From contig JAABTP010000009.1 of NCBI GenBank assembly GCA_011389815.1, positions 1-56,618 on the forward strand: a DNA stretch of 56,618 bases. The letters are read 5' to 3'. The translations under genes were made by a program, and so were the position numbers. Shown here piece after piece: positions 20,455 through 31,147 of the stretch; position 1 is the stretch's first letter, and each line of letters begins with the position of its first letter. Below the pieces are notes generated by a model, which had not been told where the DNA came from, did not search any database, and saw only the letters and a program-made list of their open reading frames with translations. Source of the DNA: Desulfobulbaceae bacterium. GTDB lineage: Bacteria > Desulfobacterota > Desulfobulbia > Desulfobulbales > Desulfobulbaceae.

Positions 20455-20531
<77 letters not shown>

Positions 20532-22811: not shown

Positions 22812-25800
22812 ATGCCGTCCGCACGAAGTGTTTTTCTTCAACGAACTGTTTTTGTCCCTCTTCTCCGTACTTCCCGAAGTTTTACTTCATTCCGATTCTT
22901 CGGCTTTCTTACCTTTCTTACAGTTCTGCCGGCTCTCTTTTCCCTGACAGCTGCAAGTCCGGTTTCTGCCTGTATGCCGACCATCAAGCATATGGCGGAC
23001 ACTATGGTCCCGCCTAATCCGGCTGTTGGAACCTCGGCCACAATAACTTTCACCGTTAGGAATACGTCTCCCTCCTGTGATGCCAACGGATATAAGCTGG
23101 CCTTTCACTCGGTACTGCCGGCAACCCCTGAATGTCTGTCAGGGAATTACAGCGGCAGCAATCCGACCTTTTCCCTTGCTGCCGGTGCAACCGGTCAGGT
23201 GACGGCCAATATACCCGCTGCACCTTCTGAACTGGCAGGCTGTAAAGTATATTTCGATATTCTTGACGCTTCCGGTTCTCCCATGCCGCTGTTGCCCGGC
23301 GGCAGAATGTGGATGAGCTTTGGCGGCGGTATGGGGCCGGGCCTTTGCGTAGGCCCCTTACCTGTCATCAACTCGGCTGATCATGTGGATATGGGTAACG
23401 GTGAAGTGGCGGTCAGCACTGAGGTAGAAAACACCATTGGTTCCCCGGTTCTGGAGGTTGACAACAGCTCAACTGACATGGAGGCGGGGTCAGGCGGCCA
23501 GTACACCGGAGGAGACAGCACTTGGCAGGGGGATAACAGTAACGCGATTACAGTCTTCGGGATGTGCGGTATGTCGGATTCCCTCGCATATAATTATCCT
23601 TCATTCTACTCGTCGCTGTATGGTTCGAGTTCTTTTCTGAGCAACTGTAGCGGAACATGCGGCAAGGATGCCGACCCCGTCAACACCGCCATAGGCAACT
23701 TTGTTTATGAAGAGGCGGACGCCACGGTAGCCGGTCCTGGCGACAGCACCATCAAACTGAACCGTACCTACAACTCCCAGGCCGTGCTCTGGACACCGGC
23801 TTCCAGGGTGCGTTTTTACCCGGATGGATCAGAGGAAGTCATGGCCGAACCGCCCCAGTATTTCGGCAAGGGCTGGACCTCGGAGCTGGGCCAGTACCTG
23901 CTGGAAATCGACATGGCCCCGACCTTTGAGGGCGTGCAGATCCTCTACCCGGACGGTCATACGGCCAATTTCAAGAAATCCGGTTCTCAATACGTCTCCG
24001 ACTCGCCCGGCACCCATGACGTGATCAGCAAGGAAGGGGATGAGTACGTGCTCCGGGACGCGGACTGCGGCTGTGCTTCGGAAGAAAAACGCTTTGACAG
24101 CAACGGTCACCTGACCGCCCTGATCGACCGCAACGGCAATGCCGTCCGCCTGTTCTATGACGGCGACAAGCTGACCGCTCTGGAAAACGCTGCCGGACGG
24201 CGGGTGGAGTTCACTCTGAATGACGACGGGCAGATAACAGAAGCCCGTTTACCGGAAGACATCAGCCTGCAATACGAGTACGAAGACGGCCTGCTGACCG
24301 CCTTTATCGACGGACGGGGCAACCGCACTGCATATCAATACGATGATCTGGGCCAGATGACTGAAATCATCTCGGCCAAGGGGCATCCCCTGGTGCGCAA
24401 TACCTACGATGACGAATACCGGGTTACTGAGCAGATCGTGGGCGAAAGCGAGCAGTACAGCTTCAGCTATGAGGACGGAAAGACCACGGTCACGGATGCC
24501 TACGGCAATGCCCATGTCCATCATTATGATGATGACCTGCGCCTGATCAGGATGGAATACCCGGACGGCAGCGAAGAGCGGTACCAGTACGATGCGGATC
24601 AGAACCGCACCGCCTATACAGATCAGGCCGGGGCGCAATGGCAGTGGACCTATGATGACAAGGGCAACCGCCTGACGGCCCAAGGCCCCTTGGGATGGCA
24701 CCGGGACTGGACTTACAACGAACGCCACCAAGTCACTCAGATGACGGAAAAGGTGGATGCCGACTCCGAGCGCACGAGCAGTTTCAGCTATGACGAGCAC
24801 GGCAACCTGATTCGATTCTGCAACGCCCTCAACGCCTGCGGCACGGTGAGCTATGATGAACGCGGCCTGCCCCTGCGCATGACCGATCTCAACGGCAACA
24901 CTACCGTGCATCAGTATGACAGCGAAGGCGATCTGATCAGCATCGTTAATGCCGAAGGCGCGGTCACCCGCCTGGATCATGACGGTCTGGGGCGGCTGCA
25001 CTCCCTGACCAAGCCCCTGGGCAGCCAGTTCCGCTACACCAGGGACGAGAATAGCAATCTCATTGCTGTGGACGGGCCGCTGGGCTTTCACCTGGAGTTC
25101 AGCTATGATGCCAACGACCTGCTGGAACGCAAGCTCGATCCTAACGGCGGGGCGATCCGCTACAGCTATAATGCCTCGGACAAACCGGTGCAGGTCATCA
25201 ATCAGCTCGGCTTTGCTGCGGCCACCTACGAGTACGGCCTGATGAACGAACGCAGCAGGTTCACGGATGCGGAAGGCAGGCAATGGGCATATCAACATGA
25301 CAGCCTGCTGCGTCTGGTCAGGGTTGCCGGGCCGTTGGGGGCAGAGTTCCGTTACCAGTACAACCCTGTGGGCAGGATCACCGACTTCATTGATGCCGAG
25401 GGCATGGTCACCCATACGGAATACGACGGTCTGTACCGACCCGTGGCTGTGACCCGCAACTGGCAGCCTGCCTTGGCTGCTACGGCGGACACCAACGTGA
25501 CCACCCGTTATGCCTATAATCTGGTCGGTGACCTGCTGGAGAAGATTGACCCGGAAGGCTATGTGTTCCAGTACCGCTACGACCTCCAGAGCCGTCGCGT
25601 CGGCAGCGAGGATGCAGAGGGCTACGAGTGGCAGTTCAGCTACGACCCCATGGGCAATCTGCTCAAGGCCCTGAACCCGCGCGGCTACAGCACTGCAATG
25701 AACTATACCCCGACTTACCGGCTGGCCCAGATTACTGACCCGGAAGGCCATGCGGTCAGTTATGATTATGATGCGGACGGCAACCGCATCAGCAGGACTT

Positions 25801-28529
25801 CGGCCCTGGGGATCAGCACCCGCTTTGCCTACGATGCCCTGGATCGCCGCATTGCCGTGACCCGTAACGCAGACTCCGGCCTGTCCGCAGATCATCAGAC
25901 CAATGTCCGCACCGAGTACGGCTATGATTTGGCAGGCAACCTGATCCGCCTGACCAATCCCCTGGGCTATGCAGCCGAGTTCAGCTACGATGCGGCCCAT
26001 CGGCGGACAGAGGCAAAGGACTTTGAAGGCGGCAGCACCCTGTACAGCTACGACCGGGTGGACAATATGCTCAGTATCATGGATGCCGAGGGCAATCCCA
26101 CCCTGTACCAGTACGACGACCTGAACCGGCGCATCAGCAGCACCAATGCCGAGGACGAGACCACCGGCTTTGTCTACGATTTGATGGGCAACCGGATTAC
26201 CCTGATTGAAGCGGATGAGACCCTGACCCGGTACGAACACGACGGGGTCTATCGCCTGCACCGGGTCACGGAGAACTACCGGCCCGGCGAGGCTCCTGGC
26301 AATGATGTCAACAAGCTCACCCGATACAGCTACGATGCCCGTGGCCTGCTCACTGAGATCATCAATGCCAACGAGGCAGCCACCGCCTTTGCATACAACA
26401 AAGTGGGCAATCTGATTGAAGAGGTCAACCCGCTGGGCAGGACCTGGACCTACACCTACGACGGCATGGGCAATCGGATCAGTCGCAGGGACGGCAAGGG
26501 TGCGCTGACTGCGTACAGCTTTTACCCGGATGACCTGCTGCAAAGCATCGCCTACAGCGACGGCACCGCAGTCAGCTATGCTTATGATGCGGATAACCGA
26601 CGTGTCCTGATGGAGGACGGGTTGGGACAGACCGGCTGGGACTACGATCCCCTGGCCAGGATTACGCAGCAGAACGACCCCTTGGCCCGGATGCTGGCCT
26701 ATCAGTATGATGCGGCCTCCAACCGTACCGGCATCACCTACCCGGACGGCAATCAGCTGGGCTACCAGTACAGCCCCAATAACTGGTTAAAAACAATGAC
26801 CGTGGATCCCGTAGGGGCACGGCAGGCCGTGCCCGTACAGACCGAATACAGCCGCGATCTGGTGGGCAACCTGACCCGGATCGTTAATCCCAACAATACA
26901 GAAAGCAATATCGAATACGACCGTGTCTACAGGACGATCCGTAGGGACACGGCACGCCTTGCCCCTACCCAACAGGTCGTATCCTTTGCTTATACCTATA
27001 ACCAGGTCGGCCATGTCACCCAGGCCATCAAGGAATACGGCTGGCGCAATCCGTCAACCATCACCGAAACCTATGAGTACGACGGCCTCCATCGCCTTTC
27101 CTATATGAACATGTCCCCGCTCAAGAACAACGGCGGCACCGTGGAAACAGCCTACAGCTATGATCCGGTGGGCAATCGCCTGAGCTGGGAAAGCAATGAC
27201 GATCTCCAGACCAATACCCCCTTTGACGGCTTTTACCGCCGCTATGAGTACAACGCGGCCAACCAGATGCTGGCTATGGAAAACGCTGCGGACAAGAAGA
27301 ACGATGATTTTGCATACGAGTACCGCTTTGACGGCAACGGCAACCGGATCAACCGGCAGCTCATCGACCGGAACGGCCCCCAGTACGGGGTTGATTACAG
27401 CTATGACCCGGAAAACCGTCTGGTTTTGGCTCAGGATTACCAACTGGTCGGGAAAGGGAAGAAAGGCGGGCATCGCATCGACCGGGCCTTCACCACCCTG
27501 GAATACGACGGCGGCGGTCGGCGGCTGGTGCAGCATTACGATCCCAAACAGGGCGGCAACGGGGTGGATAAACGGGATGAGTACGTGTTTGACGGGCTTG
27601 ATCCGGTGGCTGAATACGATATGCTCAACGGCCAGCGCACGGATTATTACCGGGGCGCGGGCAATCACCTGGCCCTGATGCACCAGTACAAAGGCGGCAC
27701 TCAGGGGCAGATGTACTGGTATCACTACAACAATAAGGGCGATGTTGCAGGGCTGACCAAACAGAACGGCAACTCGCACCATACCTACCGCTATGATCCC
27801 TACGGGGCTGTGCTGCCGGAGAACGGCAACTTCACTGATCCGCATAACCATTACACCTTGACCGGCAAGGAGTTTGATGAGCACACCGGGCTGGTCTGGT
27901 TCGGGGCGCGGCATTATGAGCCTGAGACCGGGGTGTGGATGGGGCAGGATGTGTACAGGGGAAGGTTAGATGAGCCTATGAGCTTGCATAGGTTTGGATA
28001 TGTGAGGAATAATCCGGTGACGTTGTGGGATTGGTATGGGTTTAGCGACGATAGCATGTTTAATACTGATGTTAAGGCGTGTTTGATAAATAATTTTGTT
28101 TTTAAAGCTGCCTCTCCTCTCAATGCTTGTTACTCTAAAAATGGGAAAATATCTCTCCAAGGTGATGCAAAAGCATTTAGTGGAGAATTATATCGTATTT
28201 CTGACTCAGGAGATATAGGACTTCAAGTATGCTTAGGTTCCAAGAAAATCAAGAAATTAACTGGAGACAAGGCCAGCCTTGCAGGTTGTCTATCAATAGG
28301 AAGTGATGATATTGCAATAGGAGCATCAATAGAGTGTTTAGGATTTGGAGGTGAAAGATCTCTTTCTGGTACCGAGGCCAAAAAGAAGATAGAAGCAGAA
28401 GCAGAGGAAATTAAAAAAGAATCAACAGATATTTTTTGGTTTTTTCAATCACAAGAGGGGTGTGGTCTGTTCCCAAGTATTTGTAATTTTATATATGAAA
28501 TTCGATCAGTTCTTACTCCTGGAATTTGA
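22812..28529 (+). CDS. Large secreted RHS/YD-repeat protein
   Basis: This 1905-residue protein begins with a signal peptide (hydrophobic residues ~29-50, cleavage near PVSA-CMP). Residues ~50-290 are a Cys-containing beta-rich region with an Ig/CARDB-like stretch. A DUF6531-type block (DPVNTAIGNFVYEEADATV) and several dozen YD repeats (YDxxGNL pattern) follow to about residue 1650. The RHS core ends with TGKEFDEHTGLVWFGARHYE and RFGYVRNNPVTLWDWYG. The last ~165 residues are a different, AT-rich, variable tip, the usual place for a polymorphic toxin, but I do not recognise a toxin fold and no immunity gene follows. The ATG has GGAGG. Two REP palindromes are read in frame (26811-26838, 26941-26968). 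A cyclic dinucleotide riboswitch controls it. Confidence 0.93.
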   Translation: MPSARSVFLQRTVFVPLLRTSRSFTSFRFFGFLTFLTVLPALFSLTAASPVSACMPTIKHMADTMVPPNPAVGTSATITFTVRNTSPSCDANGYKLAFHSVLPATPECLSGNYSGSNPTFSLAAGATGQVTANIPAAPSELAGCKVYFDILDASGSPMPLLPGGRMWMSFGGGMGPGLCVGPLPVINSADHVDMGNGEVAVSTEVENTIGSPVLEVDNSSTDMEAGSGGQYTGGDSTWQGDNSNAITVFGMCGMSDSLAYNYPSFYSSLYGSSSFLSNCSGTCGKDADPVNTAIGNFVYEEADATVAGPGDSTIKLNRTYNSQAVLWTPASRVRFYPDGSEEVMAEPPQYFGKGWTSELGQYLLEIDMAPTFEGVQILYPDGHTANFKKSGSQYVSDSPGTHDVISKEGDEYVLRDADCGCASEEKRFDSNGHLTALIDRNGNAVRLFYDGDKLTALENAAGRRVEFTLNDDGQITEARLPEDISLQYEYEDGLLTAFIDGRGNRTAYQYDDLGQMTEIISAKGHPLVRNTYDDEYRVTEQIVGESEQYSFSYEDGKTTVTDAYGNAHVHHYDDDLRLIRMEYPDGSEERYQYDADQNRTAYTDQAGAQWQWTYDDKGNRLTAQGPLGWHRDWTYNERHQVTQMTEKVDADSERTSSFSYDEHGNLIRFCNALNACGTVSYDERGLPLRMTDLNGNTTVHQYDSEGDLISIVNAEGAVTRLDHDGLGRLHSLTKPLGSQFRYTRDENSNLIAVDGPLGFHLEFSYDANDLLERKLDPNGGAIRYSYNASDKPVQVINQLGFAAATYEYGLMNERSRFTDAEGRQWAYQHDSLLRLVRVAGPLGAEFRYQYNPVGRITDFIDAEGMVTHTEYDGLYRPVAVTRNWQPALAATADTNVTTRYAYNLVGDLLEKIDPEGYVFQYRYDLQSRRVGSEDAEGYEWQFSYDPMGNLLKALNPRGYSTAMNYTPTYRLAQITDPEGHAVSYDYDADGNRISRTSALGISTRFAYDALDRRIAVTRNADSGLSADHQTNVRTEYGYDLAGNLIRLTNPLGYAAEFSYDAAHRRTEAKDFEGGSTLYSYDRVDNMLSIMDAEGNPTLYQYDDLNRRISSTNAEDETTGFVYDLMGNRITLIEADETLTRYEHDGVYRLHRVTENYRPGEAPGNDVNKLTRYSYDARGLLTEIINANEAATAFAYNKVGNLIEEVNPLGRTWTYTYDGMGNRISRRDGKGALTAYSFYPDDLLQSIAYSDGTAVSYAYDADNRRVLMEDGLGQTGWDYDPLARITQQNDPLARMLAYQYDAASNRTGITYPDGNQLGYQYSPNNWLKTMTVDPVGARQAVPVQTEYSRDLVGNLTRIVNPNNTESNIEYDRVYRTIRRDTARLAPTQQVVSFAYTYNQVGHVTQAIKEYGWRNPSTITETYEYDGLHRLSYMNMSPLKNNGGTVETAYSYDPVGNRLSWESNDDLQTNTPFDGFYRRYEYNAANQMLAMENAADKKNDDFAYEYRFDGNGNRINRQLIDRNGPQYGVDYSYDPENRLVLAQDYQLVGKGKKGGHRIDRAFTTLEYDGGGRRLVQHYDPKQGGNGVDKRDEYVFDGLDPVAEYDMLNGQRTDYYRGAGNHLALMHQYKGGTQGQMYWYHYNNKGDVAGLTKQNGNSHHTYRYDPYGAVLPENGNFTDPHNHYTLTGKEFDEHTGLVWFGARHYEPETGVWMGQDVYRGRLDEPMSLHRFGYVRNNPVTLWDWYGFSDDSMFNTDVKACLINNFVFKAASPLNACYSKNGKISLQGDAKAFSGELYRISDSGDIGLQVCLGSKKIKKLTGDKASLAGCLSIGSDDIAIGASIECLGFGGERSLSGTEAKKKIEAEAEEIKKESTDIFWFFQSQEGCGLFPSICNFIYEIRSVLTPGI
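26811..26838. repeat. REP palindrome inside the RHS coding sequence
   Basis: The 28-bp sequence, from GTAGGGGCACGG to CCGTGCCCGTAC, is a near-perfect copy of the intergenic REP at 38828-38855. It is translated in frame as VGARQAVPV. Confidence 0.85.
26941..26968. repeat. Second REP palindrome inside the RHS coding sequence
   Basis: GTAGGGACACGG...TTGCCCCTAC differs from the REP at 38828 at two positions and is translated as part of RRDTARLAPT. Confidence 0.8.
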
Positions 28530-28755
28530 GCAAGCAATGCAAGTGCATTCCACCATGCACCATTTCCGGCACCCCCCTTGGGCCGCGCAACCGAATCATG
28601 CGAATAATTGCCGCAAATGCCGGGCAGGGGCAAAGAATCGGTTGGCGGATGTTTTTTTGCGGGGCATGGATTTTTAATCGCAAGCCTTCGCGTTAAAAAC
28701 ACAAGCCCACGATTCTTTTCATCGGCAGCGTGATGTTTAAAATCGAAGGCCGGGT

Positions 28756-28891
28756 GTAGGGGCGGCCCCCCGTGGCCGCCCTGGTTATCCCCCCGTGTCC
28801 GCCCTGTTTGTCCACCATTTCGGCACGTTCCGACCGGGCAGGCACGGGGACCTGCCCCTACAAAACCGTGGTAACAACCGACCATGAAATA
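28756..28891. repeat. Composite REP (BIME-like) with truncated RAYT start
   Basis: A head palindrome (GTAGGGGCGGCC...GGCCGCC, 28756-28780) is joined by a linker containing TTTGTCCACCAT to a tail palindrome (GGGCAGGCACGG...CTGCCCCTAC, 28836-28861). An ATGAAATACAAT at 28884 matches the first codons of the intact RAYT at 29006. The frame soon runs into another REP linker, so only the 5' tip of a RAYT copy remains. It fills the gap after the RHS gene; no immunity gene is present there. Confidence 0.75.
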
Positions 28892-28917
28892 CAATCTGAC
28901 ATGTATCATCGCCGTCC

Positions 28918-29003
28918 CGTCCGCCCGGTTTGTCCACCATCCCGGCACGTTCCAACCGGGCAGACACGCAGGTCTGCCCCTACAATCCGTGGTGAATAAC
29001 CGA
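28918..29003. repeat. REP tail and leader directly upstream of the RAYT
   Basis: The linker with TTTGTCCACCAT, a tail palindrome GGGCAGACACGC...TCTGCCCCTAC (28957-28982) and the leader AATCCGTGGTGAATAACC repeat the arrangement seen at 28783-28883 and 30573-30654. This is the usual position of REPs next to their transposase. Confidence 0.75.
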
Positions 29004-29005
29004 CC

Positions 29006-29710
29006 ATGAAATACAACCCCGACATCCATCACCGCCGTTCCATCCGTCTGCGCGGGTATGATTACACACGGGCCGGGGCCTATTTTGTGACGATATGCGT
29101 GCAACATCGGGAATGTCTGTTGGGCCATATTTCCGTTCCCGCCGCCGTAGGGGCAGACCCCCGTGTCTGCCCTGGTATTTCCTCCGAAATTCATTTAACC
29201 GACGCAGGCCGAATGGTGCAGAAAATATGGGATGAAATCCCGGATAATTATCCCGGTGTGGATATTGATGAATTCAGGGTCATGCCGAATCATATCCACG
29301 GAATTATTGTGTTGACCGATCCTGTTGTAGGGGCGGATCCCCATGTCCGCCCTATTGATCCACCATCACGGCAGAACCACCAAGGGCAGGCACAGGGGCC
29401 TGCCCCTACGGAACCGTTATCATTGCCGGATGTGGTGCAACGATACAAATCCCTGACCACCAACCAGTATATCGACGGGGTGAAACAAAACGGTTGGCAA
29501 CCGTTTCCCGGTAAATTATGGCAGCGCAATTACTGGGATCATGTCATCCGCAATGAAAACGAATTACACCGCATCCGCGAATACATCCGCAATAACCCGG
29601 CCCGTTGGCAGCAGGACGCATTGCATCCCGACCAGCCTCCGTTCCCCGGTGAAACCCGTGAATTCACGCCGCCGTATGGTTCTTGCGGTCATGAGGTGTG
29701 GATGGTGTAG
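29006..29710 (+). CDS. REP-associated tyrosine transposase (RAYT, Y1/TnpA_REP family)
   Basis: This 234-residue HUH single-strand endonuclease has the RAYT start HHRRSIRLRGYDYTRAGAYF, the metal-binding HUH motif in RVMPNHIHGIIVL, and the C-terminal IREYIRNNP stretch that carries the candidate catalytic tyrosine. RAYTs bind and cut cognate REP hairpins. Two extra segments, residues ~48-56 (VGADPRVCP) and ~111-134 (from VGADPHVRP to GQAQGPAP), are translations of REP palindromes lying within the gene. The stop codon TAG is formed by the first bases of another REP. The enzyme may still be active if these insertions fall in surface loops. Confidence 0.92.
   Translation: MKYNPDIHHRRSIRLRGYDYTRAGAYFVTICVQHRECLLGHISVPAAVGADPRVCPGISSEIHLTDAGRMVQKIWDEIPDNYPGVDIDEFRVMPNHIHGIIVLTDPVVGADPHVRPIDPPSRQNHQGQAQGPAPTEPLSLPDVVQRYKSLTTNQYIDGVKQNGWQPFPGKLWQRNYWDHVIRNENELHRIREYIRNNPARWQQDALHPDQPPFPGETREFTPPYGSCGHEVWMV
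29147..29172. repeat. REP palindrome inside the RAYT gene
   Basis: GTAGGGGCAGAC...GTCTGCCC is a REP head of the same type found upstream of the gene, read in frame without disrupting it. Confidence 0.8.
29337..29408. repeat. Composite REP pair inside the RAYT gene
   Basis: A head palindrome (29337-29364) and a tail palindrome (29384-29408) with the CCACCAT-type linker form a complete BIME-like unit. It is read in frame as 24 residues. Confidence 0.8.
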
Positions 29711-29839
29711 GGGTACGGCGTGCCGTGCCCCAACGGGATTCCCCACCACCCATTCCATCCCCCTGCACCATGACGATTATGCCCGGTTCGCACCCCGCCC
29801 GGATAATCAATCAGGGCAGGGCCGATCCTGTAGGGGCGG
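29707..29839. repeat. 133-bp REP composite, first direct copy
   Basis: It starts with a REP (GTAGGGGTACGG...CGTGCCCC) and ends with the next REP head (GTAGGGGCGG). Between them is a ~95-bp linker with CATGACGATTATGCCCGG and GATAATCAATCAGGGCA. A copy about 90% identical by eye lies at 30426-30558. Confidence 0.8.
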
Positions 29840-29909
29840 TTCGCCTTCGGAGCCGGAGAAAACCCTGCCTCTTCGGGAAAATAACCCGATGAAACAGGGC
29901 AACAAGCCC

Positions 29910-30083
29910 CTGCAACGGGCAGAAATGGTATTGGAGCGGGTAAAACACATCCTGAAGCGGGAGGAAATGGCACTGCGGCAGGAGAAAGTGATTCTGTAGC
30001 GGGTAAAAACGCCTCTGTAACGGGAGAAAGTCGTTCTGCAGCGGGTAAAAATGCCTCTGTAGCGGGAGAAAGTCGTTCTGCAG
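29910..30083. repeat. 21-bp-period tandem array, locus 1
   Basis: Eight consecutive units have exactly 21 bp, each beginning CTG or TTG and containing (A/C)GGGAGAAA or CGGGTAAAA cores. On the plus strand the units read as heptads with leucine at position 1 (LQRAEMV, LERVKHI, LKREEMA, LRQEKVI), a coiled-coil pattern. An ATG at 29889 opens a frame that ends at 29999 where a unit reads CTGTAG. It looks like a decayed coiled-coil-coding minisatellite; expression is doubtful. Confidence 0.8.
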
Positions 30084-30220
30084 TACGTTTCTCTCAGTTT
30101 TATCCGGCCCGGAACAGGTTTTGCCTGTTCGCAACTGGAAAGCACAGCTAGTTGAAGGCAACAGGATTGTGGTTTATCGAATACGACACAGAAAAGAGGT
30201 GTACCGCAAGAGGTGATGTT

Positions 30221-30415
30221 ATGAAATTGAACCCGCAGCTGATTAAACGGCAGGGAAAGAGTGAGTTTGTTGTTCTGCCGATTGAAGAATTCGAGGCAAT
30301 GACGGAGCTGATTGAAGATTATGAAGATTTACGAGAACTGAGAGACGCGAAAGAAAAGTCTCAGGGGCAGAAATCAATCCCGATCACGGAAGTGATTGCG
30401 GAACTGGGATTATAA
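30221..30415 (+). CDS. Phd/YefM-like antitoxin, orphan
   Basis: This 64-residue protein has the pattern SEFVVLPIEEFEAMTELIED followed by YEDLRELRDAKEK, close to small Phd/YefM-type antitoxins. The ATG at 30221 was chosen over 30152 because AGAGGTGAT lies just upstream. No toxin follows; the next sequence is a REP composite. It lies between two 133-bp direct repeats with the 21-bp array. Confidence 0.7.
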   Translation: MKLNPQLIKRQGKSEFVVLPIEEFEAMTELIEDYEDLRELRDAKEKSQGQKSIPITEVIAELGL

Positions 30416-30425
30416 TTCCTCCATA

Positions 30426-30558
30426 GTAGGGGGCACGGCGTGCCGTGCCCCAACGGGATTACCACCACCCATTCCACTTCCCTGCGCCATGACGATTATG
30501 CCCGGCCCGCACCCTGCCCCGATAATCAATCAGGGCATGGCCGATCCTGTAGGGGCGG
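30426..30558. repeat. 133-bp REP composite, second direct copy
   Basis: This copy matches 29707-29839 in order and length with scattered substitutions. It includes the REP GTAGGGGGCACGG...CGTGCCCC and the linker words CATGACGATTATGCCCGG and GATAATCAATCAGGGCA. Confidence 0.8.
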
Positions 30559-30690
30559 ACCCCTGTGTCCGCCCGGTTTGTCCACCATCCCGGCATATTG
30601 CAACCGGGCAGGCACGGGGACCTGCCCCTACAATCCGTGGTGAATAACGAATCATGAATGAACCGGACATCCACCACCGTCGTTCTATTC
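30549..30690. repeat. REP composite with third RAYT 5' fragment
   Basis: The head palindrome (30549-30574), linker, tail palindrome (30606-30631), CAATCCGTGGTGAATAAC leader and an ATG at 30655 (MNEPDIHHRRSIRPSEKQ) reproduce the 5' end of the RAYT locus. After about 12 matching codons homology stops. What follows is the doubled phrase GGCATAGGGTTTGCCTATCA-like text and then the next antitoxin gene. Confidence 0.75.
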
Positions 30691-30853
30691 GACCGTCTGA
30701 AAAACAGCATAGGGTTTGCCTGTCAAAAGGCATAGGGTTTGCCTATCAAAAGGAGTTCTGCCTCCCTCCGACAAAAAACAAGCAGCTTGACAGAGTCTCT
30801 TCCCTGCAAGTATCATGACTTGTAGAGTTGTTATACTTTACAGGGAGAATACC

Positions 30854-31147
30854 ATGGAAAGAATACTTGATGTAACCTCAGCCCGGAGACAATTCGGCAC
30901 CTTGCTTGATGAAGTTTTTCATAAAGGCGATACAGTGATTATTGCCAGAAAAGGAAAAGCATTGGCTCGGCTTGTACCTCTGGAGCTACGAAAATCTCAT
31001 GACACGGACGTGTCACCGCGCCAAAGCGAATTGTTGAAAAAACTTCACAGCCTGCCTGCCCTGGCAATGGAGCAGGATCCTGTCGAAGTTTTGCGGAACC
31101 TGCGGGAGCAGAAAAGGATTAAGGGCGGTAGTGAATATGGCAGGTGA
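30854..31147 (+). CDS. Phd/YefM-family antitoxin
   Basis: This 97-residue protein starts MERILDVTSARRQFGTLLDE and contains VIIARKGKALARLVPLE, the Phd/YefM signature. The remaining half is the toxin-binding tail. Start 30854 has GGGAG upstream; the longer frame to 30815 lacks one. The stop overlaps an ATG at 31137 that opens a 13-codon remnant of the expected PIN toxin, so the pair is broken. Confidence 0.88.
   Translation: MERILDVTSARRQFGTLLDEVFHKGDTVIIARKGKALARLVPLELRKSHDTDVSPRQSELLKKLHSLPALAMEQDPVEVLRNLREQKRIKGGSEYGR

Follow-up and report, generated by a model that had tools for sequence, protein, structure and literature searches.

Why does a transposase gene carry, within its own reading frame, copies of the palindromic repeats that surround it? 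This question was raised by ORF 29006-29710 in the window, which is the whole 56,618-nucleotide stretch of DNA analysed here and represents contig 233 of a draft genome of 4.0 Mb. The ORF was open from ATG to TAG on the + strand and encoded 234 aa. The nearest named matches were Candidatus Electrothrix records, and the host is Candidatus Electrothrix, a cable bacterium. The ORF is a REP-associated tyrosine transposase gene (RAYT/TnpAREP), and the features of the locus are listed in Table 1.

The RAYT protein matched the Pfam family Y1_Tnp (1.8e-6), and against the NCBIfam equivalog NF047646 (REP_Tyr_transpos) it scored 55.1 bits, below the curated cut-off of 80. Alignment of the window protein with 48 relatives (49 sequences) showed that H96, W172, Q173, Y193 and N197 were invariant and H98 nearly invariant. 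The AlphaFold model had a mean pLDDT of 79.4 and a pTM of 0.74. Foldseek matched the model to ISDra2 TnpA (E 2.7e-6), the REP-bound TnpAREP 4er8 (E 8.2e-6) and IS608 TnpA, while a PDB search with the sequence returned a weak TnpAREP match alone (4er8, E 0.14). The protein is thus predicted to share the HuH/Y1 fold of IS200/IS605 TnpA (ISDra2, IS608). Identity with this class 1 group was rejected, as its members have a Y---Q motif whereas the window protein has YIRNNP. The E. coli TnpAREP (4er8, subclass 2.2) resembled the window protein in fold and in its association with GTAG-foot hairpins, but it has the motifs DHLH and YIHYNP and, according to the main-text parts of Quentin et al. (PMC6006769), no in-gene REP.

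On the basis of its motifs and in-gene REPs, the enzyme was assigned to TnpAREP subclass 2.4, which corresponds to Bertels group 4 in the table of Quentin et al. (2018; PMC6006769). For this subclass the main-text parts of that paper describe the motifs NH[IFV]H, WQ and YIxNNP, REPs with a GT[AG]G foot adjoining the gene, and in-frame REPs within tnpAREP, generally between HuH and Y; these in-gene REPs are confined to subclass 2.4, where they predominate, and the variable region carrying them was judged peripheral. The window protein has NHIH, W172/Q173 and YIRNNP, the gene has four flanking REPs at a distance of no more than 700 bp, and the REPIN 29327-29409 lies in frame between HuH and Y. 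Since in-gene REPs are already published for the subclass in these parts of PMC6006769, the window gene is a further case of a known habit. Unlike the genes described there, it has an extra REP (site 1) before the HuH strand, a Ca. Electrothrix host and a stop codon within a REP foot. Di Nocera et al. (2013; PMC3733652) described GTAG REPs located within other genes, along with Rickettsia palindromic elements. As in the cases given in the main-text parts of that paper, palindromes were here read in frame in protein genes, hypF included; however, those cases concerned mainly replication and repair genes, whereas here the carrier is the cognate transposase. The main-text parts of PMC6006769 and PMC3733652, supplements aside, make no mention of persistence on a tree, of near-sole in-gene copies or of a site-1 REP.

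Table 1. Features of the RAYT locus (positions in the window)
Feature	Position	Strand	Basis
Upstream REPIN: REPs 28756-28781 (+) and 28836-28861 (-)	28756..28861	+	scan, alignment
98-nt repeat, two copies (28797-28894, 28919-29016): REP and first RAYT bases	28797..29016	+	
REP 23 bp ahead of RAYT start codon	28958..28983	-	pattern scan
RAYT/TnpAREP gene	29006..29710	+	ORF, Pfam Y1_Tnp, structure-model matches
Single in-frame REP, site 1 (loop ahead of HuH strand)	29147..29172	+	pattern scan; loop in model
HuH motif MPNHIH	29282..29299	+	alignment; coordinates computed from residue numbers
In-frame 83-bp REPIN, site 2 (between HuH strand and next helix)	29327..29409	+	scan, alignment, model loop
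Forward REP of in-gene REPIN	29327..29352	+	pattern scan
Reverse REP of in-gene REPIN	29384..29409	-	pattern scan; identical to 13 other genomic copies
Y motif YIRNNP	29582..29599	+	alignment; coordinates computed from residue numbers
REP-like palindrome, other stem type; GTAG foot holds TAG stop (29708-29710)	29707..29730	+	
Downstream REPIN, full-length relative (80%) of in-gene REPIN	30549..30631	+	scan, alignment

The REP pattern GTAGGGGCRGNNCNNNNNNNCYGCCC was scanned over the 4.0-Mb genome, with the reversed pattern as a control. The pattern gave 64 matches and the control 0; chance palindromes were ruled out by this difference and by the codon-shuffled genes described below. Three of the 64 matches were inside the ORF, one at site 1 and two, in opposite orientation, at site 2. 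The two REPs at site 2 were separated by a 31-nt spacer, and the whole element, spacer included, aligned full-length with the intergenic REPIN 30549-30631 (80% identity). A partial match was found in the window at 28791-28861, and the single arms matched many of the 30 other loci of the same genome that were searched. With two inverted REPs, a short spacer and repetition in the genome, 29327-29409 is a REPIN.

An earlier note on this DNA had described both in-gene segments as REP elements of the same sequence as those outside the gene, read through without stops. The pattern matches, the alignment with the intergenic REPIN and the open frame agree with this description, and the site-1 REP lies exactly where the note had put it. 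The composite element was real, too, but its coordinates had been given as 29337-29408, with the start 10 nt late and the end one short. Absent from the note was the REP-like palindrome 29707-29730, whose foot includes the stop codon. The segments had been said to add nine and 24 residues; hand counts from the sequences gave about 15 extra residues at site 1, with the unoccupied relative L051 as reference, and 29 at site 2, with the unoccupied relative L091 as reference, so that homologues lacking the segments, which the note had proposed to look for, do exist. The opposite case that it had named, the same residues encoded by non-palindromic DNA, was absent: the relatives keep the palindrome, while letters and peptide change. 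Its question of surface loops was addressed with the AlphaFold model, in which both segments are predicted to lie in loops, site 1 between strands 40-43 and 61-64 and site 2 between strand 96-103 and helix 140-162, with block-mean pLDDT values of 56 to 81.

RAYT-like loci were collected from many phyla. The counts cover 62 genes that were open and full-length, after removal of 25 partial or broken genes, 8 duplicate views of loci already included, and short gene-head fragments. One homologue search was seeded by six query peptides, one of them REP-encoded, which introduces a slight bias. A REP foot was present at site 2 in 54 of the 62 genes and at site 1 in five, and none had a foot in residues 1-42. 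In codon-shuffled genes, a foot anywhere in the gene was found in a mean of 14 and a maximum of 24 of 62. Behind 94 of the 111 feet in the genes of the relatives, the hairpin was intact. Under a strict rule (a foot plus a hairpin of at least 7 pairs with no more than one mismatch, and flanking defined as within 700 bp), an in-gene REP was present in 53/62 and a flanking REP in 36/62; 34 loci had both, 19 an in-gene REP only, two a flanking REP only and seven neither. The nine genes without a strict in-gene REP included three cyanobacterial and two Bacteroidota genes, and relatives without a REP had open genes. Strict site-1 REPs were found in the window gene (L001), L049 and L068 of the same genus, L115 and L122, and the broken relative L052 had a REP at site 1 as well. 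The in-gene segments are real REPs of the host's own family, in frame and in loops, and one of these loops is occupied across phyla. Among other Y1 proteins, a strict in-gene REP was found in 0 of 23 scorable loci out of 30 (1/23 under a loose rule); this control is weak because only 2 of the 23 had flanking REPs.

The 47 forward feet inside the 62 genes were distributed over phase 0 (34) and phase 1 (13), with 0/47 in the phase that reads TAG, and a single phase held 33 of the 46 forward feet at sites 1 and 2. GTAGGG nevertheless supplied the stop codon in 12 of the 62 relatives, that is in 12 of the 21 with a TAG stop, compared with 17 of the 926 TAGs counted as background in these loci. The idea that REP insertion tolerates or selects coding-compatible frames was therefore upheld as to phase, but the tolerance proved wider than RAYT, since in-frame REPs are present in the hypF gene of this genome, too. 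At many stem positions, the letters changed in complementary pairs from one lineage to another; as pairing is demanded by the finding rule, these changes show variety and are no proof of constraint. The REP-encoded peptides also differed between clades. In L068, short tandem repeats of 18-bp units extended the REP-coded segment at site 2 without breaking the frame, and six-residue repeats were seen in the same segment of the proteins of L083 and L072.

The phylogenetic tree was built from 143 core columns that excluded the insert, and 23 of its 59 inner branches were well supported. On this tree, the presence of in-gene REPs changed 5 times and that of flanking REPs 18 times, a count that contig ends may have inflated. 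L091, which was nested among carriers, had no REPIN and kept its frame; this empty site is compatible with excision and equally with ordinary deletion. In 26 of the 34 loci with both kinds of REP, the in-gene stem was the same as the locus's own flanking stem (first nine hairpin letters), while permuted loci averaged 2.8 such matches and never exceeded 9 in 5000 draws. By inspection, related REP types were common to related enzymes across host phyla (L078, L080 and L081; L128 and L143); the sister genes L086 and L088 had different REP types. Among REPs of 26 nt, the hairpin was directly followed by T in 30 of 43 in-gene and 13 of 39 flanking copies. According to the parts of PMC8266576 concerned, enzymes of two other groups cleave at CT beside REPs. 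The excess is no more than suggestive of a CT cleavage site retained at in-gene REPs, and it is confounded by REP subtype.

Copies outside the gene were counted by scanning the 26-nt geometry in the assemblies of 12 genomes picked by hand, seven of them for their apparent lack of a flanking REP. Six of the 12 had no more than one match outside the RAYT gene: their totals were 3, 3, 1, 2, 3 and 3, of which 2, 2, 1, 2, 2 and 2 were in the gene (coordinates checked in five genomes; G126 inferred from counts). The remaining six genomes had 5, 7, 27, 28, 81 and 101 matches. The 24-nt geometry was confined to the gene in two of the 12 (G065 and G066). In G014, a single-contig genome that is 99% complete, the sole match to the CRG pattern was in the RAYT gene, and another REP type was directly upstream. 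All 8 pattern matches of G032 were at the RAYT locus, and G026 had 14 matches. Six genomes of the window's genus had 23 to 103 REP matches. Two genomes of this genus, G002 and G004, had 57 and 52 REP matches, and both contained RAYT gene-head fragments alone, full-length matches being absent at E values of up to 1e-10.

Twelve gene pairs were compared for conservation. In the summed six close pairs, differences amounted to 6/220 in foot and stem, 7/41 in the loop, 410/3336 in the rest of the gene and 240/1118 at its third positions. The pair L086-L088, one of the six further pairs, reversed this trend because its REP type differs. For the six genomes with no more than one outside copy, the forward REPs showed 35/300 differences in foot and stem and 32/90 in the loop, against 2147/6435 in the core, and the reverse REPs in five genes of these low-copy genomes showed 34/200 against 1413/4290 in the core; in both sets the pairs are not independent.

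In hypF of the same genome (L023, G000:C20, 3-2183, - strand), in-frame REPs were found at two places, ahead of the Sua5-like domain and within it. They were absent from L182, a gene of the same genus with 48% identity that is perhaps not an orthologue, and from L183 of the same family; for the relative L184, frame analysis yielded none that was usable. In two of the four own-genome comparisons, foot and stem in hypF were unchanged or almost so; in the other two, they differed more strongly than the remainder of the gene. Stem conservation is therefore not RAYT-specific, and after this comparison it was dropped as proof of RAYT-specific selection. RAYT is set apart by the persistence of REPs at one loop across phyla. 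A 27-bp in-frame REP unit of hypF was present in L023, L179 and, in mutated form, L180, and absent from L178, with the frame kept.

We put at about even the chance that REPs enter tolerant loops and that the copy in the loop between HuH and Y is retained as the enzyme's linked substrate. REP units would land in frame in loops tolerant of extra residues, and by analogy with the enzyme family they would probably enter by RAYT single-strand cleavage and joining. The site-2 REPIN appears to be an old feature of the gene lineage and more than a passing insertion; it remains a palindrome as its letters change and resembles in type the locus's own flanking REPs. We infer that RAYT moves REPs and that linkage is selected, the in-gene copy being a founder that keeps the cognate substrate linked to the gene. 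As this copy occupies a peripheral loop without breaking the frame, an enzyme may be encoded with the copy present as well as after its loss, and a transferred gene would carry along a REP recognisable to its enzyme. A fuller proposal, in which the in-gene REPIN of subclass 2.4 is a built-in linked founder substrate with its palindrome under selection at the DNA level, seeding dispersed REPs after horizontal transfer, is tentative and somewhat on the doubtful side.

A serious rival, close to the published view and possible though short of probable, is that in-frame loop insertions merely survive as tolerated hitch-hikers, their palindromes being kept by copy exchange or re-insertion, and have no function in the gene. 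The low model confidence of the loops, the judgement of the region as peripheral in the main-text parts of PMC6006769 and the restriction of in-gene feet to coding-compatible phases are all consistent with such tolerance, as are the in-frame REPs at two places of hypF, whose presence varies within the genus. Homogenisation or recent re-insertion could also explain the stem conservation, which was seen in hypF as well, and the different REP types of the sisters L086 and L088, together with the 9/62 genes without a strict in-gene REP, speak against a linked substrate. Tolerance alone, however, sits poorly with a foot at one loop in 54/62 relatives from many phyla and with an in-gene presence that changed less often on the tree than that of flanking REPs. 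Moreover, palindromes were intact in genomes with no more than one other copy of the geometry, where donors for homogenisation are few.

Selection might instead act on the message or on the protein. The palindrome would be kept for expression if an RNA hairpin or the bound enzyme limited RAYT production, and hairpins are indeed kept in a transcribed region while their letters change; their position late in the message, past the HuH codons, and their varying spacing and number make this improbable. That the enzyme needs the REP-encoded peptide itself would fit the one phase that holds most forward feet (33/46 at sites 1 and 2), but other phases are used too, the segment is predicted to be a low-confidence loop and REP-free relatives have open genes. 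As phases and peptides vary, the latter between clades, peptide selection is disfavoured as the main reason, and we consider it very improbable.

If the reading as a built-in linked substrate is true, each subclass 2.4 gene would be a self-contained enzyme-substrate pair. The recognition code could then be readable by covariation, and genomes with nearly all copies in the gene would be places to test REP dispersal. Two general questions are touched, namely how a RAYT and its REP stay matched and by what route REP populations arise on arrival in a new host. In any case, the results bear on the extent to which palindromic repeats can sit in working protein genes, the housekeeping gene hypF included.

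Several further observations were made around the gene. The upstream neighbour (22812-28529) encodes an RHS-repeat protein of 1905 aa, and a tRNA-Pro gene (anticodon ggg) is located at 20455-20531 (+). Downstream, a 97-bp non-coding repeat occurs at 29743-29839 and 30462-30558 (91% identical), each copy preceded by the palindrome GGGGYACGGCGTGCCGTGCCCC. The RAYT gene head and REPs are themselves repeated in L068 (G006), where a 217-bp unit is present in 7.1 copies at 24-1573, and several RAYT gene heads also occur in the window's own genome (G000:C160, about 26000-31100). This genome contains a second RAYT-like gene of another type, with DHLH and YIHYNP motifs (L152, G000:C157:62210-62551); under the strict rule it had no in-gene REP, and its score for NCBIfam REP_Tyr_transpos was 151.9 bits, above the cut-off.
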